DNA of 64,000 nt. It comes from Bolinopsis microptera. Taxonomy: Eukaryota; Ctenophora; Tentaculata; Lobata; Bolinopsidae. This document shows positions 20,101-36,200 of the stretch, piece after piece. Position numbers and translations under genes: made by a program. The stretch lies in the NCBI RefSeq assembly GCF_026151205.1, contig NC_087074.1, forward strand, positions 15,792,962 to 15,856,961, written 5' to 3'. The notes under the pieces were generated by a model. It ran no database searches. It had not been told where the DNA came from and saw only the letters and a program-made list of their open reading frames with translations. Position 1 is the stretch's first letter. Each line of letters begins with the position of its first letter.

Positions 20101-20508
20101 ATCTATGGTTAACTTATTTTTTGTCACTGGGTATTGTAGATCCAGAATAAGTTTGGATTTTGGAAGATTTGTGGACAGAATAGAGGAAAGTAATGCATTT
20201 TCTGAGTCATTGACTACGGGATTTCGAGGTCAGTTGAGTGGTAATATGAACAAATTGAAGGACTTGGATAACAGAGGAAAATAAAACATTCAATAGTTAC
20301 TATGTTAGAAACAACATTGTTCTATAAAAATGTCCATTTGGATAAGTTTCTTCTTGTTCCTTCGGCTGCACATGATAGACGTAAGCTACTCCAGGTATTA
20401 GAGCCGGTGGAGGTCTTGTGAAATTTGCCTGTTCAGTTCGACTCTGGAGATCTGAAGAAAATGCTTGGTTAGAGAATTCGGTAACTTGAGATCAGTGTTT
20501 ATGTTAAA

Positions 20509-20603
20509 AACAGTCAGAGTAACTATAATATTCTCATTATTATTGAACTTACACAAAAACTGTGCTTGAACAAATCAAACATGATAAATTGATCATCATT
20601 CTG
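20509..20603 (-). ncRNA. C/D snoRNA, 28S GAGUAACUAU segment
   Basis: Box C AATGATGATC (20593-20598), D 20514-20517, 63 nt from the exon ending 20451. The guide ATAGTTACTC (overlapping box D) pairs with 28S GAGUAACUAU. Last snoRNA of the host gene. Confidence 0.72.
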
Positions 20604-20775
20604 CGAGAATGTTAAGTTGGCCGAAATCACTTGATTAGACTTACTATTTTAGTAGTGGCAGCATTTGGCCGTTCTTCTTTTGCTTGACGTTATCTGGTGG
20701 CTGTTTAGTCCTCTGAAAAATATTTGTGTCAGAAGCATGGTTCAATGTAGGAATTATCTTCCCTTTTTCAAAGAG

Positions 20776-20850
20776 AAATTTCAGTTTAGGTGGTAGCCTG
20801 GTTTTATCTGCACTAACAATAAGATTCGTCATCTTGTTATCATCATATTA
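20776..20850 (-). ncRNA. C/D snoRNA, target unknown (copy 2)
   Basis: Box C TATGATGATAAC (20840-20845), D 20781-20784, 71 nt from the exon ending 20710. Differs from copy 1 mainly next to box D and in the flanks. Confidence 0.87.
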
Positions 20851-21038
20851 AGTATCGTTGAAGGTTAAAAGAGTTAAAATTTAGGATGCTTACCTGAGAT
20901 TGTTCTCTTTGTTGTTAATTTCAGTTTGTTGACTTTTAGAATGGTCCAATGTCAAATGAGAGTCCCTGAAACATTAACTAAGTTTAAATATCTGCAAGAA
21001 TCCCACATTAATTACGATATAATTAAGGGTGAGTTAAT

Positions 21039-21112
21039 AATATCAGTTAAGGTGGTAGCCTGGTTTTATCTGCACTAACAATAAGATTCGTCATCTTGTT
21101 ATCATCATTTAA
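21039..21112 (-). ncRNA. C/D snoRNA, target unknown (copy 1)
   Basis: Box C AATGATGATAAC (21102-21107), D 21043-21046, 78 nt from the exon ending 20965. Guide CAGGCTACCACCTTAA. Tandem duplicate of 20776-20850. Confidence 0.87.
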
Positions 21113-21270
21113 CTCTTAGATAATTTTATTAAGAACAGTTGAAATATTAAGACTTACCCTGTAAGACTGTAGTTGAAGATGTTCGCAGTATGATAGCCAA
21201 TATGATCACCTGCAAGGTTAACACAGTTAAATTTCAGTTTGACACAACTAATTATATTTAAAAGATACTG

Positions 21271-21346
21271 CTATATCAGAAGGAAGGCAGCACCAAGTAT
21301 CTGTCATGAATTTTCAGGTGACAAAAGGGTGCTTATCATCATTTGA
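21271..21346 (-). ncRNA. C/D snoRNA, SNORD83-like (18S A468)
   Basis: Box C AATGATGATAA (21336-21341), D' 21314-21317, D 21276-21279, 67 nt from the exon ending 21209. The guide GCTGCCTTCCTT before D is the SNORD83 guide. It pairs with 18S AAGGAAGGCAGC and the fifth base is A468. Confidence 0.9.
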
Positions 21347-21539
21347 AGTCTTTACCTTAGTTAAGAAAAGTACAAGTTGTGGTTAACAATTTCAGGTTCG
21401 GATCCTCATCAGCTTACGATTTAGCTTGATGCAAGCAGTGATTAGTAAAGAGGAGGGTGGAGTGAAAAGGTTGCAACGTTCCTGGAAAACATCAAATTTA
21501 ATGTGGGACAAATTGTGTTTGTTAATAAAACTTAAGGGG

Positions 21540-21607
21540 AAGTGTCAGAGAATTGTAGTTTTCTATAAACACGTGTGATTCATAAGAAATTTGCTTCATC
21601 AGATTTG
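21540..21607 (-). ncRNA. C/D snoRNA, target unknown
   Basis: Box C CTGATGAAG (21596-21601), D 21545-21548, 64 nt from the exon ending 21481. Guide GAAAACTACAATTCT. Confidence 0.78.
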
Positions 21608-21773
21608 TTCATAGGAAATTGACAAGACAAAAATGTTTAAGAAAACCAACCTTGAAAATAAGGAGTAGAATGTTGAGGTCTTGGGACAATTGCAAGATAT
21701 TTGTGAGTTCTGAAATAATTGATTGTTACAATCGTATGAAATGTGTTCGGAGGCCGATGAACAATTTGGTAGC

Positions 21774-21847
21774 ATGATTCAGATTTAAAAAGCTCTTTGA
21801 AGTTTCATAGACTTGTCTCAATTGGTGTGTAAGTGTCATCATTATTG
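21774..21847 (-). ncRNA. C/D snoRNA, target unknown
   Basis: Box C AATGATGACAC (21836-21841), D 21779-21782, 70 nt from the exon ending 21709. Guide AGCTTTTTAAAT; no rRNA match recalled with confidence. Confidence 0.8.
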
Positions 21848-22001
21848 AGGAGAAACTAAAATTGAGCAAAACTTTGTAAGAACTGACCTATTTCAGAAAA
21901 TATGTCACAGAAACGGCAGTGTTACATTTCCACAATGCCTGAAGATGAAAGAATTTGTTAGTATTGAAAAAGGTACTTCATGATAACATATTTTATGAAA
22001 A

Positions 22002-22074
22002 GTAAAATCAGAACCTTGGGAAAGTTTGTCTTCATTCAACAGTACAAGAGAGCTGGGTGTGTCATCATTTTACT
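22002..22074 (-). ncRNA. C/D snoRNA, target unknown
   Basis: Box C 22062-22067, D 22008-22011, perfect terminal stem AGTAAAAT/ATTTTACT, 70 nt from the exon ending 21938. Guide AACTTTCCCAAGGTT. Duplicated at 25892-25964. Confidence 0.88.
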
Positions 22075-22248
22075 TTGGTAACTATGGTAACTAGATTCAC
22101 AACGTTGTCAATTGAGACATTAAATTACCTGTGATATCTTTTGAGCGAAGTTGTGTATCTAAGCATTTGCTAGTCTCTGCTATCTGAAAATGAATAGTAA
22201 GTTAGGAAAATGATGAGAAAGTTTACTCGAGAGTTCGTTATATCTGAC

Positions 22249-22329
22249 GATACATATCAGTCTTAGATGTTCTGGAAAGAATGTCCACATCATTGTTCAG
22301 AGTGGTGCATGGGGTCTCATCATTGTATC
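22249..22329 (-). ncRNA. C/D snoRNA, U32-like (18S G1328)
   Basis: Box C 22317-22322, D' 22297-22300, D 22257-22260, terminal stem GATACA/TGTATC, 74 nt from the exon ending 22183. The D' guide ACCCCATGCACCACT equals the U32 guide but for one base (18S GGUGGUGCAUGG). The D guide CAGAACATCTAAG pairs with the 18S CUUAGAUGUUCUG segment. Confidence 0.88.
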
Positions 22330-22507
22330 ATTTAGAATAAGAAATCAGTTGCTTTATCACTAGTTTTCTTACCTGGTAAGAATGTTGCAGTTGATGTTGT
22401 CCATTATTCAGTGAACTCATTCCTGACACTTGTCAAATCTGAAATAAAGACACGTGTTATTTTTAAGGTCTAAAGTGATCTAACAAGCCTATCAATTTTA
22501 TTGTTAG

Positions 22508-22735
22508 GTTTGTCATTTGCATGGTTTATCCCCGTGGTAACTGAGCACTAGGGTCTCCACGAGGCACAAGGAATATGCAATGGAACCACCGAACACGAGG
22601 TTAGTGGCTCTTGTTTTGCAACAGTACGGAGGACATGTCCACAGGAGAACGGGTCCAAACACCATCGGGCTGCCCGCACAGCGGTCAAACTGACGGGAAC
22701 ACCCAGTTGCGAGAATACGGTATTGTGCACGGAAT
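22508..22735 (-). ncRNA. SNORA73: U17/snR30-type H/ACA snoRNA
   Basis: In the 3' hairpin the two universally conserved 18S-pairing elements are present: m1 GCATATTCCTT (22568-22578) and m2 AAACCATGC (22521-22527 core). H box ACAAGA at 22609-22614. ACA at 22511-22513, three bases from the end and 70 nt from the exon ending 22438. The 5' domain is closed by TGCACAATACCG against CGTACTGTTGCA. Length ~228 nt fits U17. U17/snR30 does not modify rRNA; it is required for 18S maturation. The 60-codon ORF here is spurious. Confidence 0.93.
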
Positions 22736-22887
22736 ATGAACGATCTAAGAGAATAACTAAATTAAGAGAAATTACCTAGAAGAGTTTCGATGTCTTCATT
22801 CTTCCTGTTTCACCCAACTGGACCTGGTAAGATTTACATCGTTAGAAAATACGTTCAGAGAAGAGACATTAAGGTAGAGTTTAACTT

Positions 22888-22972
22888 GTGTTATCAGATT
22901 ATAAAAATAGTTTTATCAACATGATCCAGCTATCTAGACTAGGTCAGTCGGGGAAAATTTCCTCATTCAACT
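22888..22972 (-). ncRNA. C/D snoRNA with variant box C
   Basis: Box D 22894-22897 (71 nt from the exon ending 22823), box C ATGAGGA (22960-22966), an internal CTGA (D') preceded by TTTTCCCCGA. Lacks a canonical RUGAUGA; position and spacing support it. Confidence 0.55.
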
Positions 22973-23184
22973 TCAATAAAATTATCAGGGGCTTATTTCC
23001 CTAATCTTTTCTATTCTGGGCAGAACAAACTTACCACTATGAGATTGAAGTTAGGGGATTCACGTGATCGTCCTAGTAGATCTCTTCGTCGATTTTTAAT
23101 GAGCGAAGCTGGTCCTGAAATCAATAAAATTATTAGGGGTTTACTCTAGTGTTGAACAAATCAAATTAAACTCCTATGGGAACT

Positions 23185-23264
23185 AAATTATCAGACATCC
23201 AAGAAAGTAAAACTTCATCAGAATCAGTGGAAACTGCGATGTTGGGGTTTTTCATCATATTATG
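23185..23264 (-). ncRNA. SNORD14: U14 C/D snoRNA, copy 2
   Basis: Box C TATGATGAAA (23252-23257), D 23191-23194, 77 nt from the exon ending 23114. Both U14 rRNA-pairing domains are present and identical to the copy at 28332; only the flanks differ. Confidence 0.95.
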
Positions 23265-23360
23265 AGCTACAATTTCGAGAGTTTAGTTTCATACAAAGAA
23301 ATGAACGAACCTGGTTGAATAAGCTTCGGTTTCAATGTTGAATCTCTGCTAACACCAGTA

Positions 23361-23665
23361 CTGAAGGAATGTTGACAGTTTATAAAACAGTTCAGTACCG
23401 TTGAAAACCCAGATTTATTAACATCATAATTCGCCCATAACATGAATGTTTCAAGCAGGGTAAATTGTTATTTTGTAGCGTTCATCTCTCATAATCATTC
23501 CGTCATATTGCCTGTACAAGGCCATAGTAATAATAAGTAATAATAGGTATATAGGAATTTAGGTACACTGGTTATGCATAATATACCGTGTACAGACGTC
23601 GGCTGGTCAAGTTAAATCATAACGCTTGAAGTTGTATGATGTTCTCTACCATTACAGAGTCTTAC
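23361..23665 (-). other. Host-gene intron without a defined snoRNA
   Basis: 305-nt intron, larger than the C/D-bearing ones. A box-C-like ATGATGT and a CTGA (about 23391-23425) are too close together. A GCCT-TGTAC-AGGC hairpin and an ACA near 23447 could belong to an H/ACA RNA, but I cannot define its boxes. Confidence 0.4.
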
Positions 23666-23791
23666 CTTTAATCTAGAAGAGTTCTGTTAGACTGTAGTTA
23701 TGGTTCAGAGGTGGTGAGTCTTCCTTAAACTGGGGATTAAGTAGATTAGACAACTGCTACTGTTAATGAACTACACAATTGATAGCTATTT

Positions 23792-23871
23792 GATGTTTTC
23801 AGACAGCCAAGGGTGTCATATCATAGGCAATCAGAACAGTCGCGAAACTGAATTGGTTTCATCATAACATC
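23792..23871 (-). ncRNA. C/D snoRNA, target unknown
   Basis: Box C TATGATGAAA (23859-23864), D' 23830-23833, C' TATGATATG, D 23798-23801, terminal stem GATGTT/AACATC, 69 nt from the exon ending 23729. Guides CAGTTTCGCGACTGTT and CACCCTTGGCTGT. Confidence 0.85.
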
Positions 23872-24041
23872 ATAATGCAGCAATAATTTCTTATTAGTTT
23901 TATAAAAACCCACCTTCTTATATTTGGCTCCGGATGAGTCTTGATCTTGGAGAGTGGTTTCTTCAGGTCGGGACCTTGGCAAAGTATAACATGAAAACGA
24001 TGTTTATGGTCCAGGCGCCACATATAAAATGGTTTTGTTTA

Positions 24042-24116
24042 CTTCAAATCAGGATTATTATAATGGTGTCAACTCAGAGGGGTCAGACGGTAATTCCAAT
24101 AAAACATCATTTTAAG
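24042..24116 (-). ncRNA. C/D snoRNA, SNORD65-like (18S U627), copy 2
   Basis: Box C ATGATGT (24104-24110), D' 24083-24086, D 24049-24052, terminal stem CTTAAAA/TTTGAAG-type, 75 nt from the exon ending 23974. Near-duplicate of 24295-24366 with the same U627 guide. Confidence 0.88.
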
Positions 24117-24294
24117 AGTATGGTTTCCAGCTTTCTAGAAAAAGTACAGAACTATTCATTTGCCTATCTCACCTGCAATTTATGATATTCCAGGGCTTCT
24201 TCAACTAGCTCCTCAGATGTTCCGGTGTTTTCCTGAGTAAAAATGAAGGTTAGCATTTTTAAATATTATACGAACTTATTGCATCTAGATTATT

Positions 24295-24366
24295 TTATAT
24301 CAGGCTTATTATAAAGGTGTCAACTCAGAAAGGTCAGACGGTAATTCCAATAAAACATCATTTAAA
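24295..24366 (-). ncRNA. C/D snoRNA, SNORD65-like (18S U627), copy 1
   Basis: Box C ATGATGT (24355-24361), D' CTGA inside GGTCAGACGG, D 24300-24303, 68 nt from the exon ending 24232. The D' guide GGAATTACCGT pairs with 18S CGGUAAUUCC and selects Um627, the SNORD65 site. Confidence 0.88.
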
Positions 24367-24528
24367 GATGAAGCATACTGAGAAAATTCATCCAACATCT
24401 TTTCCAAACTTACTTTTCATGTAGGAACGATCCATTTGAGTAGCAGAAGAATGTGTACAAACTCCTGAAGAAAGAAAAGGTTTAAGAACTAAAATAACGG
24501 AACTACAGCAAGTAAACTTTTTTAACAT

Positions 24529-24602
24529 CACCACTCAGTCCAAGGAAGGTCAATATCATAGATAAATCTCACTGAAACGCACGAAGCTAATCATCATTGG
24601 GT
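24529..24602 (-). ncRNA. C/D snoRNA, 18S CCAAGGAAGG segment
   Basis: Box C AATGATGATTA (24591-24596), D 24535-24538, terminal stem CACC/GGTG, 71 nt from the exon ending 24464. The guide CCTTCCTTGGA pairs with 18S UCCAAGGAAGG. The fifth base would be A465, between the U14 and SNORD83 sites. Confidence 0.82.
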
Positions 24603-24810
24603 GATAAGATAAGAACTTTAAGAGAGTAGTTTGTTAAGTGCATACCTTCCGGGTAAGGCGCTTGTTGGGTCTCTCTCTGTGTGAGCACTGTCATGTTGCA
24701 CAGGAGCAATTGTTATGTTGGAGTCAACTTCAGTTGTGGAACCTCCCTGGTAATAGTTAAACTTATAAGTCAAAGGAGAAAGCTTGAACAAGTCAGGTTA
24801 ACTTTTGGTG

Positions 24811-24897
24811 TAATTTCAGAAGGAACAATAGGGTAAACACAAACACAAGCAGGAAGCTAGTGTGGTTCTTACAGGGCAAGTCATTCTCATCATAGTA
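24811..24897 (-). ncRNA. C/D snoRNA, target unknown (copy 2)
   Basis: Box C 24887-24892, D 24816-24819, 70 nt from the exon ending 24746. Differs from 25125-25211 at a single interior base, so the duplication is recent. Confidence 0.85.
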
Positions 24898-25124
24898 CTT
24901 GAATAAACAGGATTCTATCAAGAATTTCTCCATCTAGCTGTATTAGCTTTCTTAACAATAACTTAATTTGGTTGTCAGAAACTACCATAAAATGATAGTT
25001 GAGAACGTTTTATAGGCCTTCACCTTAGATGAGATCTGATCTAGTCAGTTGTGGTATCGACCTGATAATAATGAGGTTAGTTAGTCAACTAATATAGCTA
25101 GTGATGAGACGTACAATTTGCATG

Positions 25125-25211
25125 TAATTTCAGAAGGAACAATAGGGTAAACACAAACAAAAGCAGGAAGCTAGTGTGGTTCTTACAGGGCAAGTCATTC
25201 TCATCATAGTA
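25125..25211 (-). ncRNA. C/D snoRNA, target unknown (copy 1)
   Basis: Box C TATGATGAG (25201-25206), D 25130-25133, 69 nt from the exon ending 25061. Guide CTATTGTTCCTT. Nearly identical to 24811-24897. Confidence 0.85.
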
Positions 25212-25367
25212 CTAATATAAGATTAAGTTTTACGATTATGATTGTAATAATTACCTTTGAATGCAGGTCCATATAGGAGGAGAAGGTTTCAGTCGAGCAA
25301 AAACACAGACCTGAAATGAGTTCTATTTAACAAAGGCTTAATCAAGGTTGTCGCGAAAATGTCTCTT

Positions 25368-25434
25368 TAAAGTCAGGTGGTCAGTTTGGCTTCACATGGA
25401 TTCAGAAACACGGACCGTGTCGTCATCATTCAAT
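25368..25434 (-). ncRNA. C/D snoRNA, 28S AAACACGGAC segment (U18-like target)
   Basis: Box C AATGATGACG (25423-25428), D' 25402-25405, D 25373-25376, 63 nt from the exon ending 25310. The D' guide GTCCGTGTTT pairs with 28S AAACACGGAC, the segment I associate with U18 in other eukaryotes (from memory). Confidence 0.82.
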
Positions 25435-25594
25435 GATGGTATATTTTATAGATGGGACGTGAGCCAGTCACTTACCTAGATGTTCAGATTAGTTGAGAGA
25501 TAGACACGCAGTTAAGGAGAAAGACAGATCAACGGCTGAAATGATTAAGGTTTGAATAATGATTTTGTTTATAGTTTAATCTTATTCTTAGAAT

Positions 25595-25717
25595 TGAAAT
25601 TCAGTGAGAAAAATTAACATCATGTCGCGTCTACTCAAGCAATCCAAGAAACAAAAAACATGTTTCAAGAATTAAAAGCGGACCCGTCAATCCAAATGCC
25701 AGATATCATCAATTAAA
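25595..25717 (-). ncRNA. Long C/D snoRNA, target unknown
   Basis: Box C TTGATGATA (25706-25711), internal C'-like ATGATGT (25617-25623), D 25601-25604, 66 nt from the exon ending 25535. Terminal AATT/AATT pairing. At ~120 nt it is the longest C/D unit here. Confidence 0.65.
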
Positions 25718-25891
25718 CAGCCTCAGTATAAATAGGATTATTTTCAGAGATGGTCCTTACCATTCGGAGATAGTATGTTCCAGATAATGTCAATCGTCGA
25801 TTCTTGAGTATCTGATTACTTTTAGCTGGTCCTGAGGTTAATTTGTGTCAGATGTTATTTCATGGTATAAGATATTATCATGTTGTTGTGA

Positions 25892-25964
25892 GTAAAATCA
25901 GAACCTTGGGAAAGTTTGTCTTCATTCAACAGTACAAGAGAGCTGGGTGTGTCATCATTTTACA
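25892..25964 (-). ncRNA. C/D snoRNA, target unknown (duplicate of 22002)
   Basis: Box C 25952-25957, D 25898-25901, terminal stem AGTAAAAT against ATTTTAC(A), 67 nt from the exon ending 25831. Guide AACTTTCCCAAGGTT. Identical interior to 22002-22074. Confidence 0.85.
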
Positions 25965-26141
25965 TTAGTAACGATGGTTACCGAATTTAGGATATTTAAA
26001 ATGAATCTTTATTCACCTGTCGTTTATTTCTGTGGAGTTATCCATTTTAGCAGTTGCTGAAGTCCAATCTTGTATCTGAAAATGAATAGCAAGTTAGGAA
26101 TTTTTTAGCTAGTTTACTAAAAAGTTAAATACATTTGACGA

Positions 26142-26212
26142 TACATATCAGTCTTAGATGTTCTGGAAAGAATGTCCACATCATTTTTCGGAGTGGTGCA
26201 TGGGGTCTCAGT
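26142..26212 (-). pseudogene. Decayed copy of the U32-like snoRNA
   Basis: Same sequence as 22249-22329 with box D (26148-26151) and both guides, but box C is gone (the match stops at GGGTCTCA and continues with unrelated GTTCGTAAG) and D' is CCGA instead of CTGA. The neighbouring exon and the next snoRNA (25892) belong to the same block duplication. Unlikely to form an snoRNP. Confidence 0.8.
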
Positions 26213-26368
26213 TCGTAAGTAAGAGGTTATAGTTTGAATAATGTTAACGTACCGTGATTCTAGTAAGAATGTCTTTTACTTGAATGTCACATTCTTCAAT
26301 TCCCTGAAAAAGACAGAGGTTTTAAACTACGGATGAGATTATTTGGTAAATATATAAGTAATGGAGAG

Positions 26369-26440
26369 GTTGAATCAGATACGAGGAATTCGATTTGTCA
26401 TCAAGAGTTTCAGAACAGGTCTGAATAATCATCACATTGC
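26369..26440 (-). ncRNA. SNORD25: C/D snoRNA U25 (18S G1490)
   Basis: Canonical C 26429-26434, D' 26410-26413, C' 26399-26404, D 26375-26378, 72 nt from the exon ending 26303. The D' guide CAGACCTGTT is that of U25 (18S AACAGGUCUG, Gm1490). A second guide, GAATTCCTCGT before D, pairs with 18S ACGAGGAAUUC. Confidence 0.92.
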
Positions 26441-26589
26441 ACAGTATGTAGAGTGTGGACAACATCTTTAGCGATTAACCTACCAGGAGTAGAGATCAGG
26501 ATCCCTCTTCTACGCATAGTTTCACTCAAGCTGAAGATTAGGAGTGTTAATTTGAGATATACAATCTGAGAACTTAATAATTTCAGGTG

Positions 26590-26693
26590 AAGTGTCAGAT
26601 TCGGGAATTATCTGCAAGCAATCAAGAGAACGTTTAGTGGGCTGGCAGGCCCCATTCAAATGACATCAGACGCAAATTACGTCATCACAGTAC
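26590..26693 (-). ncRNA. SNORD16: C/D snoRNA U16 (18S A484)
   Basis: Box C TGTGATGACG (26682-26687), D' 26668-26671, D 26595-26598, 65 nt from the exon ending 26530. GTAATTTGCGTCT directly after box C is the U16 guide; it pairs with 18S CGCAAAUUAC and selects A484. The unusual length (~104 nt) also matches U16. Confidence 0.92.
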
Positions 26694-26858
26694 ACAGTTT
26701 TTGAGAACTTATGTACACTGATTGGTTTAAAAAATTACCTCTAGAAAGAGTACCGGAAGATGATGTAACTCTTGATTTCCTCTTGCAACACAAATACACT
26801 GAAATTATTTAGAGTTAGTGAATTCTTAGACATCGAGAGAGGACAGAGTTTTCAATGT

Positions 26859-26928
26859 GGACATCAGGTATGAGGTTTGTTGTCATTCAGTATTTTTCTG
26901 AACAGGTCTGTTGTGATCATCATTTGTT
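26859..26928 (-). ncRNA. C/D snoRNA, diverged U25 relative
   Basis: Box C AATGATGATC (26917-26922), D 26864-26867, 66 nt from the exon ending 26798. Carries CAGACCTGTT like U25, but the expected D' box reads CAGA. The 3' guide AACCTCATAC resembles the U25 copy's CCTCGTAT. Probably an old duplicate with altered targeting. Confidence 0.78.
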
Positions 26929-27113
26929 TCAGAGTTTCATTCATTGACCTAACAGTTACATTTTTTGCTTACCAGTTAAGCGAAGTAAGACTTCCTCAGA
27001 TACTTCTAGACTTTTAAGCAACGATCTCCTGACATTCTTGTAAGACTCTGAGAATTATTACTGATTGAAGTCTCATTCATCACACAATTAAACGAGAACG
27101 AGGAGATTAAATT

Positions 27114-27188
27114 GATATTATCAGAATCAGCGGGAAATTATTCTCTTCACTGGCAGAGCTCATGTAATTTCATACATCATTATATCCT
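27114..27188 (-). ncRNA. C/D snoRNA, 28S AAUCAGCGGG segment (copy 2)
   Basis: Box C ATGATGT (27174-27180), D 27121-27124. Its 3' exon most likely ends at 27047 (74 nt away). The interior is identical to copy 1, so it is a recent tandem duplicate. Confidence 0.88.
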
Positions 27189-27362
27189 TAACGAGGTAGC
27201 TATTGTAAAATATCTAGGTTGTACTTACAGTCAAGAAGATAGTCTATAAATGTGTTCGTTCTGGTTTGTTCAGTTGTTTTGTTCATCCACTGTTGAATCT
27301 GAGATAAGTTATCGATTAGTAACAGCTTAACAGTCCCCATGTGCGAAGCACAATAGGACGAG

Positions 27363-27437
27363 ATATATTATCAGAATCAGCGGGAAATTATTCTCTTCAC
27401 TGGCAGAGCTCATGTAATTTCATACATCATTATATCA
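27363..27437 (-). ncRNA. C/D snoRNA, 28S AAUCAGCGGG segment (copy 1)
   Basis: Box C ATGATGT (27424-27430), D 27371-27374, terminal stem GATAT/ATATC, 73 nt from the exon ending 27298. The guide TTTCCCGCTGATT pairs with 28S AAUCAGCGGG(G)AAA with one skipped base. Nearly identical to 27114-27188. Confidence 0.88.
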
Positions 27438-27606
27438 GCCTATCTATTATAAAATACTCTGTCTGAGGTAAACTTACCGATGTTATTCCAACTTTCGCAG
27501 CTGAGTGGAGAAACTCTGATTGAGAGAGATGGAGCATAGCGTCACGCCTGAAAGATTTATGTTTTACAATAACAACAAAGCTAAGTGTAACAATATTTAG
27601 GATGAG

Positions 27607-27690
27607 ACACGTTCAGGTGAAGAAATTGTCCTCATTTCAGCTTCTCAGCTGTAATCGAGCATTAATGTCATGGTTGGATCATCACTAGTA
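27607..27690 (-). ncRNA. C/D snoRNA, 28S GUGAAGAAAUU segment
   Basis: Box C GTGATGATC (27679-27684), D' CTGA at 27645-27648, C' ATGAGGA, D 27613-27616, 66 nt from the exon ending 27547. The D guide AATTTCTTCAC pairs with 28S GUGAAGAAAUU. Confidence 0.85.
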
Positions 27691-27870
27691 ATATCAAGAA
27701 TAATTCTTATGTCCAAGGAATGGTGTTTACCTTGGCATCGATCTTTGTTGTCGTTCCAAATCTCAGATTTCTGACGAATTCAGTTGGGCGGTAACAATGC
27801 ATGGGAATCTGAAAGTAATAACAGTTCAGTAAGTTAAACAGTACACAGTTTAAAATAGATCTTATGCTAA

Positions 27871-27932
27871 ATATAGTCAGGGTAGTGGTGTCCTCATGTT
27901 AATCAGACCCGAAAGATAAGCATCATTTAATA
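27871..27932 (-). ncRNA. C/D snoRNA, 28S GACCCGAAAGAU segment
   Basis: Box C ATGATGC (27920-27926), D' 27903-27906, C' ATGAGGA, D 27877-27880, 69 nt from the exon ending 27808. The D' guide ATCTTTCGGGT pairs with 28S ACCCGAAAGAU and the fifth base is the G of CCCG, a conserved methylated segment (yeast snR39b region, from memory). Confidence 0.85.
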
Positions 27933-28096
27933 GAATTGTGAACTGGTAAGGGTTGAACGAACAGAGAATTGTACTTACAAGTAGAGTTGGGAAAGGTTCT
28001 CATAGTCTATTAGTTGCCACAAACTCGTACAATCTGAAAATGGAGATGTTTGCTACTAAGAACACAAGGTTTAAGCAGTACAAGCATGATATAAGA

Positions 28097-28166
28097 TAGA
28101 AGTCAGATCAATATAGTTTTTTCTATCACTGTATTCAGACAATGTAGGTTATGGTCATCAGGCTTT
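28097..28166 (-). ncRNA. C/D snoRNA, 28S CAAUGUAGG segment
   Basis: Box C CTGATGACC (28155-28160), D' 28135-28138, C' GTGATAGA, D 28103-28106, 70 nt from the exon ending 28033. The D' guide ACCTACATTGT pairs with 28S ACAAUGUAGGU. Confidence 0.85.
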
Positions 28167-28331
28167 TTTGTAATATTTAATGCTTATATACCAGAAATAT
28201 TTGCTCACCTTATTAGATAAGAGAGGATTTTGTCCGTGACTGCTTTTCTTTTTCTTAGAAGATTAGTTAAAACCTGAAAAAAGGGTCTAGTTATGTGGAG
28301 AAATAAAACGAATTAAATTTTAGAAGAGAAT

Positions 28332-28410
28332 AATAAATCAGACATCCAAGAAAGTAAAACTTCATCAGAATCAGTGGAAACTGCGATGTTGGGGTTTTTC
28401 ATCATTTAAA
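28332..28410 (-). ncRNA. SNORD14: U14 C/D snoRNA, copy 1
   Basis: Box C 28399-28404, D 28338-28341, 65 nt from the exon ending 28273. Contains both U14 hallmarks: CATCGCAGTTTCCACTGA (domain A, needed for 18S processing) and CTTTCTTGGATGTCTGA (domain B, guiding 18S Cm462). The boxed interior matches the copy at 23185. Confidence 0.95.
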
Positions 28411-28553
28411 GATAAGAATCAATGCTAATTTTAAAGCAGTTCTTTATTTACCTTCTGAGAATTCTTGCCCTAAGACTGGAAACGCGGCTCCTGAAGCAGT
28501 TAAGTGTTACAGCATGTGATCACCATAACAACAGGAAGGTTAACAGAAAGGTA

Positions 28554-28629
28554 AAATGATCAGTTTATGGGTGGTAGGAGTATAGAATAGTCCTCACATT
28601 AGAGTAGGCAGTCTCTCTCATCAAGTCAA
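28554..28629 (-). ncRNA. C/D snoRNA, target unknown
   Basis: Box C TTGATGAG (28618-28623), C' GTGAGGA, D 28560-28563, 70 nt from the exon ending 28490. Guide before D: CTACCACCCATAAA. Confidence 0.8.
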
Positions 28630-28799
28630 GTTGTGTAAACATTGTGTGTACAATCTCAATAATTAACTTACCTTAGAGAATGATCAGGAACAAAAGGTTT
28701 TGAGATAATTTTCTCGGCAGAGTTGGTTGATTTCCAGGAAACTGCGAAGAGTTTTGTTAGAACCGATGTTGCATGAAAGATAATTAGAGACTTTCAAGT

Positions 28800-28871
28800 T
28801 GAGATCAGGTGTTACCTAGGTGTTTTCACCATGGTGTGTAAGACAGGGATAACTTGTGTTCATCATTTACT
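28800..28871 (-). ncRNA. C/D snoRNA, 28S peptidyl-transferase region (copy 2)
   Basis: Box C 28860-28865, D 28805-28808, 64 nt from the exon ending 28741. Same ends and same ACACAAGTTATCCCTGT guide as 29084-29158. The middle diverges, so this is an older tandem duplication of an exon-intron unit. Confidence 0.82.
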
Positions 28872-29083
28872 TTCAGAGGGAAGCTTAAAATTGCTGTTTA
28901 AAAATCAGCTGTGGTAGAACGAAATTCATTTATACAAGAAATATGAAACTTACCTTAATTTAACAGAAGTGTAGAGAAGAGGTTTTATTCTCCAGCTTGT
29001 TCCTTGTTAGTTTTCTCGATAACTGCGAGAGAGAAGCTGGTTAGGATCGATAAATACAAACAATATTCTACAAAGAGTTGAAG

Positions 29084-29158
29084 TTAAGATCAGGTGTTAC
29101 CTAGTTTTTATCACCACATTTAGGGTATGACAGGGATAACTTGTGTTCATCATATACT
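29084..29158 (-). ncRNA. C/D snoRNA, 28S peptidyl-transferase region (copy 1)
   Basis: Box C 29147-29152, D 29090-29093, 68 nt from the exon ending 29022. Contains AAGTTATCCCTGT, 12 nt complementary to 28S ACAGGGAUAACU of the peptidyl-transferase centre. The D' box is not canonical. Duplicate of 28800-28871. Confidence 0.82.
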
Positions 29159-29310
29159 TAAATATATTTTCAGTGGTATATAATTAAGAGGATAGTCTTA
29201 CCTTTCTGGGTGCAAGGGAGACTGGGTCGTCAGGTAAACGTCTCTCTTAGCTGAAATAACATTATGTTATGATCATGTCAGAAGTTATCATTGAAACAGA
29301 AGTTTGCGTC

Positions 29311-29390
29311 TAAGATCAGATACGGCGGAAATTAAGGTGTCCTCACTGTTCGAAAACTCGTGTAATTTACAATCTCTTCATTAAATGTGG
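29311..29390 (-). ncRNA. C/D snoRNA with variant box C
   Basis: Box D 29316-29319 (66 nt from the exon ending 29250). The only box C candidate is ATGAAGA (29375-29381); a C'-like GTGAGGA is internal. The guide TTTCCGCCGTAT fits 28S AAACGGCGGGAG with one mismatch and G-U pairs. Weaker than its neighbours. Confidence 0.55.
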
Positions 29391-29567
29391 TTTCTACTGC
29401 AGAATTTAAATATCTTTGAGACACTTACTAAGAGAATGCAGTAGATTATGTAGTCAAGGCAGTCTGTTGTTTTGAATCTCTCCAGATAGATTCCTATAAC
29501 CTGAAAATTCAATATGTTTATCTTTGATTAAGACAAATTAACGTAAGTTAGATTAGAGTTCTAGAAG

Positions 29568-29750
29568 ACCTGTATCTGATCGGATTGAGACGAGGACTAG
29601 AAAGTAATGTCCCACTAAACCAGACCATGTGATGTAGTTTCAGTGAGGGGCAGCCAAGTAGCAAGTAAAGGGAGCGTTCACATACCGGCATGTGGAGATA
29701 TCAGTATATTCAAGTACCAACATGTTCACAAAATAGTGTGTGAACGATCC
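29568..29750 (-). ncRNA. H/ACA snoRNA candidate (paralogue of 29964)
   Basis: H box ACATCA (29630-29635), 3' hairpin CTGGT...ATCAG with inner GGAC/GTCC, then ATACAGGT with ACA three bases from the 3' end at 29568, 68 nt from the exon ending 29500. Upstream a CGTTCACA/TGTGAACG stem exists, but the 5' boundary is uncertain. The 81-codon plus-strand ORF here is incidental. Confidence 0.55.
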
Positions 29751-29963
29751 CCCGGCTTAGCTGGTGCATCAAGGAAACAGAAAGTAAAAGAATCAGCAAT
29801 TAAAAGCTTTGAAGCAGACTTACGATATACAGGTGTTAGGTCAGCCGATGGGTTTCTCTCAGGCATTCAGTCACTACAAAAAACCTGAAGAATAGGCTGG
29901 TAAATTCAAGTTAGTTACTAGGCTTAGACAGCTCACTAGAATGCAACAGATGTGAAATAATTA

Positions 29964-30085
29964 GACTATATCTGGTTTGGTTTGGGTTAGAGACGGGAAC
30001 TATGAAGAAAACGTCTCACTGAACCAGACGAAGTAATATAGCTACGCTGACGACCAACTAAGCACGTAGAGCCTAGCTGGGGCTT
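29964..30085 (-). ncRNA. H/ACA snoRNA candidate with AUA box
   Basis: 5' hairpin closed by CTACG/CGTAG, H box ATATTA (30034-30039), 3' hairpin with lower stem TCTGGTT/AACCAGA and upper stem GAGACG/CGTCTC, then ATA in place of ACA three bases from the end. Paralogue of the next H/ACA downstream: the hinge and 3' hairpin region align with that copy. Confidence 0.6.
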
Positions 30086-30271
30086 TCTGGAAGCAAACTG
30101 TTTACTAAAGTTAACAAGACTTACTTTCTAGAGAGGAGCCATGTTTGAAGCAGCGTCTTCAGTTGTTTTAGAACTTGTTCATCTTCGGTCGAAGAAGCAT
30201 TTTCGGAGCTTCATCTGAGAGAGTCAGTTTATTAGATACAAATGAACTACGAAGATAAGCTTACTTAGGAT

Positions 30272-30341
30272 ATATTGTCAGACTCATTAAATCAGTTTGT
30301 AACCTTCACGGAGAATATGGTCAAGAGGATCATCAGTTAAA
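30272..30341 (-). ncRNA. C/D snoRNA, target unknown
   Basis: Box C CTGATGATC (30330-30335), candidate D' 30292-30295, D 30278-30281, 64 nt from the exon ending 30214. Guide before D': CGTGAAGGTTACAAA. Confidence 0.75.
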
Positions 30342-30513
30342 TTAGTTTAAATACTCGTGTCGTAAGGGAAAGTCATCTTACCTTCAGAGATGTTTCAGCA
30401 TTAGAGGACGGTAGTAATTGCGGATGTTAGAGAGCCCCTTTGGACCGATTGAAAACTGAAGAGAAGATGTTTTAGAATTAAGTTTACAGAAATAATGGTG
30501 CAAGAAGAATTGT

Positions 30514-30591
30514 ATTAATTCAGAGTGTTAATTAGCATCAATAAAATCAGCCGGCAATTCCTATCAAAGATTTATAACTCATCATTAACAA
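30514..30591 (-). ncRNA. C/D snoRNA, target unknown
   Basis: Full set of boxes: C 30579-30584, D' 30547-30550, C' TTGATGC next to it, D 30520-30523. Terminal stem TTAAT/ATTAA. 65 nt from the exon ending 30455. The D' guide ATAGGAATTGCCGG was not matched to rRNA. Confidence 0.85.
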
Positions 30592-30732
30592 ATAGTCTTA
30601 AAGTTGTAAAGTAGATTAACGATGGGCCTACCATTAGTGTGTAGATTTCTTTTAAGTTCGGAGTTGCAGAAGCTGAAAGTAAGGAGTCGTCAAGTACAGA
30701 ATTTTCAAGATTTGTGACAGATATTTCTGAGA

Positions 30733-30810
30733 AAACATCAGATAGGAGCGAAAGAATGCAGTAAATCGACATTATCAGTTTCAGTTGAACTAAGTTATCA
30801 TCACTTTGAT
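30733..30810 (-). ncRNA. SNORD80: C/D snoRNA U80 (28S)
   Basis: Box C GTGATGATAAC (TGATGA 30798-30803), D 30738-30741, 66 nt from the exon ending 30672. The 3' guide CTTTCGCTCCTATCTGATGT is identical over this stretch to vertebrate U80, which methylates a 28S G (human G1612). The 5' part (AACTTAGTTCA) also resembles U80. Confidence 0.92.
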
Positions 30811-30986
30811 GTTTGGAAAATGGTAAATTAATCGAGAGGTAAACTTACATGTCTGGAAAGCGGGATCTGCTGGCATGAACGTCCTTCATTCACTTTGTTT
30901 CTTTATATTCGATCCACTAAAGAAAGGGTTAAGGTCAATAATACGAACTCAGGATGAGATGTACAATAAATATAATAAGAAAAATA

Positions 30987-31112
30987 AGGTGTATCTAAAG
31001 CACGGGGCAGGGTCGCACAAGAGCAACACAACACGTTTAACCGTAGAATTAACTTTTCCTGTACGTTTACCACAAAGCTATACGAACTACATGGCTTCGA
31101 GGACAGGTTATT
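30987..31112 (-). ncRNA. Possible H/ACA snoRNA
   Basis: No C/D boxes in this intron. On the minus strand a CCTGT...ACAGG-closed segment is followed by a second foldable segment with TAAA/TTTA closing pairs and ATACACC, an ACA with its end 71 nt from the exon ending 30916. H box not clear. Assigned mainly by position and size. Confidence 0.4.
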
Positions 31113-31261
31113 TAATATATAATATTACTTACATTAGGATTATTAGAGTAGTTAAGTTAAGTTAGAGTAGAGTTAGTTTTCACATCATTGAATATCGTAT
31201 CTGAAGTGAGAGACTGTTAAGGCGGGAACATAGATTAAGACTACAACAGAAAGTTTCTTAA

Positions 31262-31326
31262 GATAGTCAGAACGATAATATCCTCAGAAAAGTCAGATAT
31301 ATGCTTGTCAAAATTCATCATTCATG
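31262..31326 (-). ncRNA. SNORD27: C/D snoRNA U27 (18S A27)
   Basis: Box C 31315-31320, D' 31293-31296, D 31267-31270 (67 nt from the exon ending 31200). The D' guide GACAAGCATAT is that of vertebrate U27 and pairs with the 5' end of 18S (AUAUGCUUGUC). The fifth base falls on A27. Confidence 0.88.
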
Positions 31327-31484
31327 ATTGCAGCGGAAAATTTAGATTGTGCTTGATTTAACTTACCACTCTTAGAGTAATAGGTTCATTGGTTCGCTAA
31401 GCTTTTGCAAACGGAAGATCTGAAACAATTATTACGTATTAGCATTTAATAAAATCCCAAAGGTTACTTCTCATGTTTGGAATG

Positions 31485-31548
31485 GTTTGTCAGCTAAGGA
31501 ATTAATCACGGAAATCATTACAGGTCTCCAATTGTATCATCACTCAAA
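31485..31548 (-). ncRNA. C/D snoRNA, target unknown
   Basis: Box C TGATGA at 31537-31542 (GAGTGATGATA context), box D CTGA at 31490-31493, terminal stem GTTTG/CAAAC, 71 nt from the exon ending 31419. The guide before D, ATTAATTCCTTAG, has no exact rRNA match that I recall. Confidence 0.8.
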
Positions 31549-31723
31549 CAAAACTGTATTATGTAGTGAACTGCAAGATCTACTACGTACCTGATTTCAA
31601 ATTCAAAGACTTGTTGTCCAATGTAGAGAAGAGTACTAGAGACTTCAAAACTTTTCTCCCTGCAAAACAGATCCGTTACTATCTCAATATGTTGGAGAAA
31701 CTAAATTTAATTGGGACTTAAGT

Positions 31724-31848
31724 GTCTGTGAAAACCATAAATGGACAATGAGCGTGATGCTCACAGTCAAAGTGGGGTTGTCAAGTTAATGTACTCCTCA
31801 AAATACACAAACTAACACAGATTTAGTTTGCTCTAGCAGGGAGTTGGC
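31724..31848 (-). ncRNA. H/ACA snoRNA candidate
   Basis: Minus-strand order: hairpin CAAACTAA-loop-TTAGTTTG, H box ACATTA (31787-31792), second hairpin with lower stem AACC/GGTT and upper stem TGAGC/GCTCA around an internal pocket, then ACA three bases from the end (31727-31729). The 3' end is 65 nt from the exon ending 31659, the same spacing as the C/D units. Target not assigned. Confidence 0.6.
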
Positions 31849-32022
31849 TTAATTCAGAAGTAAACTTGTGTGTAATTACCTGATCAGGAGGTCAGATGTG
31901 TCTCTCAAGGTTGAATTGTGTTCGTGATTGCAGAGCCAAGTACCGGAGTTTGGAGAGTTGGCCCTGAGAAGCAACTAGGTGAGACTGGTAACGAGAGACT
32001 ACGATAAAATTTACTGTGCAAA

Positions 32023-32094
32023 ATCTGTTCAGAATAGCGTATAGATGCGGTCAAAACTGAAAGTTGTTACCAACAAGTGTGTCCTCATTTAGAT
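32023..32094 (-). ncRNA. C/D snoRNA, SNORD54-like (18S G644)
   Basis: Box D (CTGA) at 32029-32032, 66 nt from the exon ending 31963. Box C is the variant ATGAGGA (32082-32088). Terminal stem ATCT/AGAT. The guide before box D (TATACGCTATT) pairs with 18S AAUAGCGUAUA. The fifth-base rule selects the G that is Gm644 in human, the SNORD54 site. Confidence 0.75.
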
Positions 32095-32384
32095 ATGGGC
32101 AAGACTATAATAAATAAACGGGAATGTAGTGAGCTAGGACTTACCATTGGGTATAAGCAAGCATCGTCGACACCATGTCATAGACTTTGGCCTGGAAGCA
32201 AAAGCTCAAGTCAGAAGGGTCGTGTGTGAAAATGATCGAAGTTAAGTGAAGTTCCGATGAGAAACAAATGTAAATGTACACTCAAAATATAACTGATGAA
32301 TTCGTTTATAGGCTATACCAAGGGATGCGTTGCTACTAACGCGTTGCAAGCGGACAACTTTTGAGAGGTCAAGTTTGCTTTAAT

Positions 32385-32470
32385 GATGCTGAAAAGTCAC
32401 CCTCTGTACGCGAGGCGCGCACATTTTTGCTAGTTACTAAAGATTAAGTGCTACGCGCGGCCCTAAAATC
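32385..32470 (-). promoter_or_regulatory. Probable TOP-type start of the snoRNA host gene
   Basis: Minus-strand reading gives GTGACTTTTCAGC, a C followed by pyrimidines near 32396, just downstream of a locally CG-rich patch (GCGAGGCGCGC, CTACGCGCGG at 32410-32460) in AT-rich DNA. snoRNA host genes and ribosomal protein genes usually start with such terminal oligopyrimidine tracts. The start point is inferred. Confidence 0.4.
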
Positions 32471-33241: not shown

Positions 33242-36200
33242 TTAGTAGGGTTTGTAGTTAGCACTTCTGGAACTCCCGTACGTGTTGGACGCGTACGTGT
33301 TTTTCTGGGCCCCGTAAGAGCTTGGAGCTTGGTTGTACTGTCCAGCCGGTTGCTGCTGTAAAGATATAAGTTATAAAAAGTTACAACGTTAAAAGTGAGA
33401 TTTAAAGATAAGCTGGAATCATATAACTGTGATGACTGTTATTTACAGTGGTTCAGGGCTCAGAAGAACTGGTAAAATGTCAGCAAGCAGCTGTGATACC
33501 CCACACACAGGGCCAGGAGGAATGGTGCAGGTGAAACCTGATTGCACGTGCACAGATAACTCCTAACATTGCACGTGTTGTATCTAGCATTAGTGTAGTC
33601 CTTACTATACACTGCACAAGTATTGTGTACCAGACAGCACCTGTATAGGACACTAAATCAAGTTCCCTCCCTGTCTGACTAACCTGTGGGTAGTAAGGGT
33701 TAGCAGCCGGAGCAGGAGGGTATCCAGGAGCTGGCTGAGGGTAGGCGGGCTGTGCTGGATAACCAGGGTAGGCAGGGTAGGAGGGAGCTGCAGCAGGGGC
33801 CGAGTATCCTGGAGCTGTAGGAGCTTGTTGGGCTGGAGCTCCTCCGTATCCACCGTAGGGTGGGTATGCTCCGTAAGCAGGCATGGGAGGGGCAGGGTAG
33901 CCGGGAGGGGGGCCGTATCCAGCAGCTGCAGGAGGTGCACCGTACACAGAGGGGTTCTGATTGTGTCCTCCCTGGTGTCCTCCCATATGTTGCTTATCTT
34001 TCACATCCAGTGCTTTCTTACATTCGATTGTCTTGCCGTTGAATTCTATGTGCTGAAATATGATAATATTAATTCAGCCCTAATCCATCAATTGTGGTGT
34101 CATGAAACATTCAATTCTTGAAAAGATTAATCAATTTTAAAACTGGTCAGGACATACCTTGAGAATGACCAGTTTGTCCACAGTATCACTGTCCTCAAAA
34201 GATACGAAGCCGAATCCTCTGCCTCTTCCAGTATTCTGATCTCTCTTGAACTGGCACTGGGTAACTTTGCCGTGCTTCTCAAAGAAAGCTTTGAGTTCTG
34301 CCTCGTTAGTTTCGGGTAATCCTCCTACAAAGATTTTGTGACATCTCTCTTGTGGCTGGTCCTTGGGTACCGCTCTCTTTACGTCCACCTGATCAACAAT
34401 AGTTAGTTATTCTGGTAAAAGAGGATGCAACTACTATAATGAACAGAATATCATAATGTGATGTACTACATAGTTACAATGTAACTACACAGTAACTACA
34501 CAGTAACTACACAGTAACTACACAGTAACTACACAGTAACTACACAGTAACTACACAGTAACTACACAGTAACTACACAGTAACTACACAGTAACTACAC
34601 AGTAACTACACAGTAACTACACAGTAACTACACAGTAACTACACAGTAACTACACAGTAACTACACAGTAACTACACAGTAACTACACAGTAACTACACA
34701 GTAACTACACAGTAACTACACAGTAACTACACAGTAACTACACAGTAACTACACAGTAACTACACAGTAACTACACAGTAACTACACAGTAACTACACAG
34801 TAACTACACAGTAACTACACAGTAACTACAAAGTAACTACACAGTAACTACACAGTAACTACACAGTAACTACACAGTAACTACACAGTAACTACACAGT
34901 AACTACACAGTAACTACACAGTAACTACACAGTAACTACACAGTAACTACACAGTAACTACACAGTAACTACACAGTAACTACACAGTGGGCTGTGAGTG
35001 GGGGTCATGCTAGCATAGGGTATTTTAGACCATCACACATGCCCATAACTTTGTTTCTAAGGTAATTTGGGTACAAAAATACGATTCCAATCATTTACAG
35101 GGCCGAAAATGTCTCAGAAAAAAAATTTTGGGCCGATTTTGAGCAATCTTGTAGTACAAAAATAGGAGGCTGATCCCAGGAAAAGTTGTTTTTTTAGAGG
35201 TTTAATCAATTTTAAAGCTCTTTTATGAACTGTAAACGAAGGACAGCTATCTTAGGAACTCAAATCTTTTTGAATTATGAAAAAATATTGATCAGAACAA
35301 AAGTTGTGCCTATTTATATGACCAAAATTTTCTGAAACACCAAAATTGTTCCTGTTATTTTCAAAAATTTCGTTTAAAATCACGATTTTTTGGATTTTTA
35401 TCAATTTTAACTATAATAATTGTGATATTTTGATTTTTCATCCATATGCATCTGGTCTAGGGTGCAAAAAATGCCACAAACATGGAGAATAACTAAAATA
35501 TGTCAATTTGACAAGATGGTTTGATGTCGATTCGGGGACTGGACAAGGTGATGTGCAAGGGCCTCCCATTTTCAACCTTGTACTTAACTGGGGATTAGAA
35601 CTTGCCGAGAAGTTTAAAAATATATCGCGTGGTTTTACTCTTCAGTACAGACAAAGTTCCAGACAACCGGAAAAATGTGTCATTGATTTGGACTATGCTG
35701 ATGACATAGCAGGCATGGATGACACTGTCGAGGGACTGCAAGAAACAACGGACAATATTGCGAAATACTGTGGGCTTGGGGGTTTAAAGATGAACGCAAA
35801 GAAAACAGAGATCATGGTAATTGGGAAAGATACGTCGCAGCACCCACTCCCAGAGAATAGGACCATAGATATTACTGTCGATGGAAACTCTGCAAAGCAG
35901 GTCACTCAATTCACTTATTTGGGTGCCAAAATTACATCGGATGGCAAGATCGATAAAGAAATAAGTGTCAGGATTGGAAAAGCAACCGGAGCTTTTAACC
36001 AACTCAATAACATTTGGAAGAATAAGAACATAAGCATTAACAACAAAGTGCGAATCTACATCGCAGCTGTTCTTACCATTCTGACCTATGGAAGTGAGAT
36101 ATGGAACACGACTCAAGTGCAGACAAGAAGATTAGAGTCTTTCCATCAGTACTGCTTACGCAGAATCCTGAGAGTGAGGTGGTTCCATCGAGTAAGAAAT

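Follow-up and report, generated by a model that had tools for sequence, protein, structure and literature searches.

The window analysed here comprises 64,000 nucleotides (nt) of the ctenophore Bolinopsis microptera (C3:15792962-15856961, in an assembly of 264.65 Mb and 232 contigs). Its minus strand contains a long candidate host gene of small nucleolar RNAs (snoRNAs), modelled at 20300-32191 with 46 exons and 45 introns, both ends being approximate. Positions are those of the window unless a contig or locus is named. The exons are without a significant open reading frame (ORF), and the introns harbour about one snoRNA unit each, most of them of the box C/D class.

The gene model was obtained with splice models that are blind to snoRNAs. 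Under generic splice weights the minus strand scored 251 with 45 introns, compared to a maximum score of 82 and a mean of 25 introns in 30 dinucleotide shuffles, and to a score of 109 with 36 introns for the plus strand at this place. A self-trained splice model yielded 47 introns, of which the two upstream-most (before 32192) were removed; the 45 retained ones extend from 32144-31964 through 20644-20452. All have GT-AG borders, with a median length of 181 nt (range 146-337), while the exons have a median of 61 nt (range 38-126). The earlier note on this DNA had described about 47 short exons with such borders, compared to the 46 found here. The chain is continuous, on one strand only and without gaps, introns not exceeding 337 nt and internal exons not exceeding 126 nt. 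The spliced model of 2,987 nt contains 42 to 64 stop codons per frame, and its longest ORF starting with ATG has 72 amino acids, compared to a mean of 69 and a maximum of 156 in shuffled sequences.

In 38 of the 45 introns the best pair of C and D boxes reached a score of at least 14. None of the 45 antisense sequences did so, and among 450 shuffled introns the rate was 1.33%. Box D was located 62-77 nt upstream of the 3′ splice site in 36 of these 38 automatic picks, compared to 10% of 421 picks from shuffled introns. The two remaining picks, in introns 11 and 34, were wrong by position. After reading by eye, intron 11 was re-assigned, the pick in intron 34 was removed and units 17 and 24 were added. 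The final set consists of 39 C/D units, 38 of which are intact, with boxes C and D and terminal pairing, whereas one (unit 24) has a decayed box C; the earlier note had counted 38 C/D units. In all 39 units box D is at the distance of 62-77 nt, the three units picked by eye being no test of this spacing. A cruder caller that makes no use of introns found 23 units on the minus strand of the gene and three on its plus strand, five and six elsewhere in the window, and a mean of 3.6 (maximum 8) in shuffles. With a strict caller, defined as a C/D pair plus an acceptor 58-82 nt downstream, the gene yielded 24 units, while no unit was called on the rest of the minus strand or anywhere on the plus strand of the 64 kb window. 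The motif YTRAY, sought only near the 3′ end, is present in 31 of the 39 introns at a median distance of 41 nt from box D.

Units were numbered by intron from the upstream end of the gene, all on the minus strand. Several of them can be assigned to families by Rfam, by their predicted target in 18S ribosomal RNA (rRNA) or by both. Unit 6 (30738-30804) belongs to snR60/Z15, which we take to be the U80 type, and scores above the gathering threshold of Rfam (RF00309), as does unit 40 (21779-21842), a SNORD36 with an E-value (E) of 0.2 and the predicted target A620. The two U14 copies, unit 15 (28338-28405; predicted target C416) and unit 35 (23191-23258), are full-length but sub-threshold matches at E 1e-4. 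Unit 33 (23799-23865) is SNORD53/92-like and just under gathering at E 1.4e-6, and unit 8 (30278-30336) is SNORD57-like (E 9e-5, below gathering) with a 16-nt duplex predicted to address A99. Of snR77 type are unit 7 (30520-30585), found by Rfam, and unit 31 (24300-24361), both with the predicted target U579; unit 32 (24049-24110) is a copy of unit 31. Unit 12 (29090-29153) resembles snoR38 (E 0.025) and has an 84% identical copy in unit 13 (28805-28866), unit 27 (25373-25429) resembles SNORD18 (E 0.004), and unit 43 (21043-21108) resembles snR75 (E 0.02), unit 44 (20781-20846) being its copy.

The names of unit 4 (31267-31321; U27-like; A28), unit 22 (26595-26688; U16-like; A438) and unit 23 (26375-26435; U25/snR56-like; G1430) follow mainly from the predicted target, the Rfam matches of units 4 (SNORD27) and 23 (snR56) both having an E of only 0.21. 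Likewise, unit 42 (21276-21342) would be of snR52 type by its target A422, for which Rfam gave only E 0.55 (U83) and E 6 (snR52). Rfam, often far under its cut-off, and the predicted target are concordant for the U14, SNORD57, SNORD36, U27, snR77 and snR56 types. Unit 21 (26864-26923; snoU25 at E 5.1) carries the CAGACCTGTT element of unit 23, the U25 type, but ahead of a non-canonical D′ box, so that it was not scored. The earlier note had considered U14, U16, U25, U27, U80 and U17/snR30 unmistakable and had proposed an Rfam search; that search has E below 0.001 at six places in the gene and upholds the U80 type above gathering and U14 and U17 as full-length matches under it, leaving U16, U25 and U27 as names given mainly by target.

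The C/D score also identified unit 1 (32029-32088; predicted target G596), unit 3 (31490-31543), unit 14 (28560-28624), unit 16 (28103-28161), unit 18 (27613-27685), unit 19 (27371-27430) and its 100% identical copy unit 20 (27121-27180), unit 25 (25898-25958) and its 100% identical copy unit 39 (22008-22068), the long unit 26 (25601-25712), unit 28 (25130-25207; A542) and its copy unit 29 (24816-24893), unit 30 (24535-24597; predicted target A419), unit 36 (22894-22966), unit 38 (22257-22323; predicted to address G1272 by its D′ box and A1446 by its D box), unit 41 (21545-21602) and unit 45 (20514-20599). The boxes of unit 11 (29316-29381) and unit 17 (27877-27926) were re-read by eye, and unit 24 (26148-26212), added by eye, is a degraded copy of unit 38 in which box C is lost.

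Intron 37 contains a probable H/ACA snoRNA of the U17/snR30/SNORA73 family (22508-22710), matched over its full length with E 2.8e-13 and 62.5 bits, below the Rfam gathering score of 74; its own fold differs from shuffles by a z-score (z) of only -1.4. Five H/ACA candidates had been proposed by the earlier note, and two of these have predicted folds better than shuffles, namely those in intron 2 (31720-31844; z -2.7; ACA 3 nt from the end) and intron 9 (29964-30083; z -4.3). No such fold support was found against shuffles for the weak candidate in intron 5 (30987-31111; z -0.5), the one in intron 34 (23503-23643; z +0.4) and the 3′ part of a candidate in intron 10 (29567-29655; z +0.8). Intron 10 is related in sequence to intron 9, with a local score of 40 compared to a shuffled maximum of 27.

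For the prediction of guide targets, the genome's own 18S rRNA (locus L005, its 3′ end being unreadable) served as reference. Ungapped duplexes were extended from each D or exact D′ box, and the methylated base was assigned by the box+5 rule (excerpt of PMC5199042). Yeast 2′-O-methylation sites were taken from Table 2 of the same excerpted source, and a site was counted as matching if the base was the same and lay within 3 nt of a yeast 18S methylation site. Over all units, 26 boxes reached a score of 9, and 16 of these 26 fell on yeast 18S methylation sites, compared to 16 of 184 non-box anchors of the same RNAs (Fisher 3.7e-9). At stricter scores the contrast shrinks together with the numbers, to 12/20 versus 11/90 at score 10 and 10/15 versus 7/35 at score 11. 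When units picked by eye and second copies were left out, 12 of 20 duplexes with a score of at least 9 matched, where 2.9% were expected (p 3e-14). With tolerances of 0, 1 and 2 nt, the matches among these 20 non-redundant duplexes numbered 1, 8 and 12; the counts rise because the numbering of the two 18S rRNAs shifts by up to 2. The yeast counterparts of the matched sites are 28, 100, 414, 420, 436, 541, 578, 619, 1271 and 1428, that is 10 of the 18 known sites. Yeast has no site corresponding to the predicted ones at 596 and 1446, which may be lineage-specific or wrong. Altogether 21 of the 39 units form an 18S duplex of at least 9 at a box. As a group, the C/D units possess predicted antisense elements against 18S rRNA that follow the box+5 rule.

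We also compared the units with a set of all rRNA pieces, which included degenerate copies of the genome's own 28S rRNA and 3 kb of a tubeworm contig assigned to 28S by pattern match alone; 28S sites were excluded from the guide claim. Unanchored snoRNA-rRNA duplexes were rejected as proof of guiding, the background being too noisy. Copies of ribosomal DNA were noticed on contig C5 (L004 886-6402, L006 7450-9501, L012 203-2971) that are low-scoring or apparently have an insertion in 18S, beside the good 18S in L005. In addition, the loci L014, L015 and L017 are public contigs of a tubeworm-endosymbiont metagenome-assembled genome with a eukaryotic 28S pattern, presumably host contamination.

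A repeat search for matches of 30 nt or more revealed eight pairs of C/D copies within the gene, with snoRNA identities of 84-100%. The exons beside these copies have identities of 0.46-0.68 (upstream) and 0.30-0.68 (downstream), compared to 0.51-0.52 for random pairs. Units 24 and 25 are collinear with units 38 and 39 at offsets of 3890-3892 nt and in the same order; this stretch was therefore duplicated as DNA. The exon between the duplicated units is retained at 0.68, the snoRNAs at 0.93 and 1.00. From this comparison, made between copies within the gene, the snoRNA load looks to be under selection and the exons hardly so. For the other copy pairs, later gene conversion or copying of the snoRNA alone may have played a part. 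A tandem clonal array of the SNHG14 type, with many copies of one or two families, was not found within the gene, which has the eight C/D copy pairs only.

The splice chain, the box pairs, their fixed spacing, the 18S guides, the lack of a significant ORF and the drift of the exons all fit the earlier note's proposal of a non-coding gene that carries a snoRNA in almost every intron. We are confident, as far as DNA sequence can tell, that the gene is a dedicated non-coding snoRNA host of the UHG/SNHG kind, processed by splicing. One long transcript would start near 32.3 kb, two or more adjacent ones being less likely, and each intron would be spliced out of it. Box C/D proteins would assemble on the snoRNA during splicing, in most cases 65-70 nt ahead of the 3′ splice site, after which the debranched intron would be trimmed back to the bound snoRNA and the joined exons discarded. 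The released snoRNAs would then guide 2′-O-methylation of rRNA. Besides this, U17 and U14 have a role in the maturation of 18S rRNA. Transcription, processing and methylation are in each case what the gene structure leads us to expect; Iso-Seq and RNA-seq of Bolinopsis are reported in PMC10232365.

Several findings weigh against this interpretation. The assignment of exon 1 is ambiguous, as is that of the donor of intron 42. Only two units, one each of snR60/Z15 and SNORD36, pass the gathering score of Rfam. Eighteen of the 39 C/D units lack an 18S duplex of at least 9 at a box, and units 30 (A419) and 42 (A422) were both counted for yeast A420; with the local numbering shift of +2, only 422 corresponds to it. 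Over all rRNA pieces, with no intact 28S of the genome readable, anchored duplexes are in moderate excess, with 22 of 65 at a score of at least 10 compared to 14% for shuffled, 7 for antisense and 10% for non-box positions. Best unanchored duplexes are mildly above background, 27 of 39 at a score of at least 11 compared to 50% for shuffled sequences, 15 for antisense, 17 of 44 exons and 15 of 39 flanks. The enrichment of YTRAY near the 3′ end is mild as well (31 versus 18 of 39).

The closest rival is a variant of the same explanation, in which two or more adjacent snoRNA hosts with their own promoters take the place of one gene with 45 introns. One transcript is unprovable from DNA alone, and the fly Uhg genes are shorter in the excerpt of PMC4430873; against this stand the single strand and the gapless chain, with introns of at most 337 nt and internal exons of at most 126 nt. 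We regard a single transcript across the gene as probable and the division into several hosts as rather unlikely. That vertebrate hosts are commonly protein-coding (PMC8162545, in excerpt), and that a gene with a ribosomal S8 domain on contig C6 seems to carry an intronic C/D candidate, would speak for a fast-evolving protein-coding gene with intronic snoRNAs, but with 42-64 stops per frame, a longest ORF like that of shuffled sequences and duplicated exons hardly kept, such a gene is highly improbable here.

Equally improbable is a polycistronic array cut by endonucleases as in plants, with splice motifs arising by chance: the dense head-to-tail order would suit it, yet the introns contain about one unit each, set at a constant distance from the 3′ splice site, and the splice chain is far above that of shuffles. 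The graveyard of decaying snoRNA copies that might be read from unit 24 without box C, from the possibly decayed H/ACA units in introns 10 and 34 and from the 18 units without an 18S match is just as hard to reconcile with 38 intact box pairs, with guides that touch 10 of the 18 known 18S sites and with duplicates that keep the snoRNA beside a drifted exon.

A DNA search with the gene detected a second U17 on contig C1 (80% identity), which at 70.9 bits likewise stays below the gathering score of 74. On contig C6 it detected copies of units 6 and 7 (99% and 89%). Both contigs contain a further multi-snoRNA host. The one at C1:14605424-14612542 (plus strand) has, besides its U17, tandem copies of a SNORD18-like unit as well as repeated units with an ATGATTA box, the other at C6:12746700-12734200 (minus strand, approximate) many tandem copies. 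The strict caller found 14 units in each of them, compared to 24 in the gene of the window, and none on the opposite strands. The looser C/D score was passed by 13 of 24 modelled introns of the C1 host and 20 of 40 of the C6 host, these models including chance introns. Splice runs with flanks totalled 77 introns (C1) and 60 introns (C6); they were not taken as the intron counts of the hosts because the runs also place chance introns in genes nearby, in a transposable element and in a satellite. The C6 host is preceded by two genes that have ribosomal S2 and S8 domains, and it is interrupted by a transposable element that recurs many times elsewhere. A tandem satellite of ~366 bp is located immediately downstream of the C1 host (C1:14613597-14621404).

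Across the genome, the pattern GTAAGT-N35-48-RTGATGA had 434 matches, compared to 277 for its reversed form, a hint rather than a survey. Among the matches listed, which end in C3 ahead of the window, more than two different sequences within 10 kb were noticed together only at the C1 host.

The sequence AACGCGT-N7-AACGCA at 32326-32345 on the minus strand is a candidate promoter element, and the same element is present just upstream of the C1 host (L010 9775-9794, plus strand). It has 12 exact matches in the genome, compared to three for the reversed pattern, and two of the 12 are at hosts. The 3-kb loci around the other ten matches contained no strict C/D calls, and in the L007 part of the C6 locus the element was not found even when up to 3 mismatches were allowed. 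Since it was picked by eye before counting, it is a lead only. It is conceivable, if somewhat doubtful, that much of the rRNA guide set, including U14 and U17, is gathered in at least three giant non-coding genes, two of which might share a promoter element. If this were true, ribosome modification would be set by a handful of transcription units, and both gene-dedicated expression of guides and the constant spacing ahead of the 3′ splice site would go back to the base of animals.

The kind of gene is already known; what is new is its size with mixed rRNA guides, its lineage and the number of such genes, which is at least three. Vertebrate SNHG genes carry about ten snoRNAs each, with U17 and U14 in different hosts. 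UHG/SNHG1 and GAS5 resemble the present gene in their intronic rRNA guides, poorly conserved host and preferred distance of C/D units to the 3′ splice site (excerpts of PMC7719101 and PMC8162545). C/D units lie ~50 nt upstream of the branch point, aided by AQR (same excerpt of PMC8162545). The Drosophila genes Uhg1-5, 7 and 8 likewise have no recognisable ORF and one snoRNA per intron, with several hosts per genome. According to the excerpted text of PMC4430873, the highest number of introns in a Drosophila Uhg gene is 16, and the described genes have 48 snoRNAs combined; the 45 introns found here in one gene are nearly three times those of the largest fly Uhg. The earlier note's view of one of the largest such genes calls for qualification, as human SNHG14 has 22 SNORD116 and 44 SNORD115 units (PMC7917289, in excerpt). 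SNHG14 and the SNORD113/114 locus of mammals are also non-coding hosts with tens of intronic C/D snoRNAs; SNHG14, however, has more units that are repeats of two orphan snoRNA families, whereas mostly different families, many with predicted rRNA targets, are found here. From recall and the cited excerpts, this is the largest mixed-guide snoRNA host that we can name.

Intronic snoRNAs also occur in the ribosomal-protein genes of sponges, which are likewise non-bilaterian, but these hosts are protein-coding (PMC3412847, in excerpt). The same excerpt, from 2012, states that snoRNAs of basal metazoans were poorly characterised, the sole systematic survey, in Trichoplax, having found eight. Among literature on ctenophore snoRNAs and on snoRNA hosts, such a gene was not found in titles and the beginnings of abstracts. 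Here a single gene provides a set of guides that can be read from the sequence; many of them have predicted 18S targets, and most are missed by Rfam with its cut-offs. The ancestry of UHG-type hosts and of splicing-coupled C/D assembly in animals becomes testable, and the duplications within the gene allow the evolution of snoRNAs and exons to be compared side by side.

The upstream neighbour on the same minus strand is the 3′ part of a gene for an RRM protein (33480-34400), recognised by its ORF and by Pfam RRM_1 (1.4e-15 for 34158-34340). Adjoining it, a long array of 11-nt units (GTGTAGTTACT) was spotted by eye at 34480-34990. Six glutamate-receptor loci of the genome were retrieved, and two ligand-binding stretches from them were compared with the PDB, a third being dropped for its stop codons. 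Both have ML032222a of Mnemiopsis as their best match and 4zdm of Pleurobrachia as the next, before fly and vertebrate receptors (120, 83 and 74 bits for L019); for L023 these two are the only molecules at E<=1e-15. Two full-length receptor queries placed vertebrate kainate receptors first, and the comparison supports a ctenophore origin without proving it. Many glutamate-receptor genes, some clustered and several with long frames of >900 amino acids, were noticed just beyond the window end (C3:15860547-15935985), at C12:11782391-11809362 and elsewhere.

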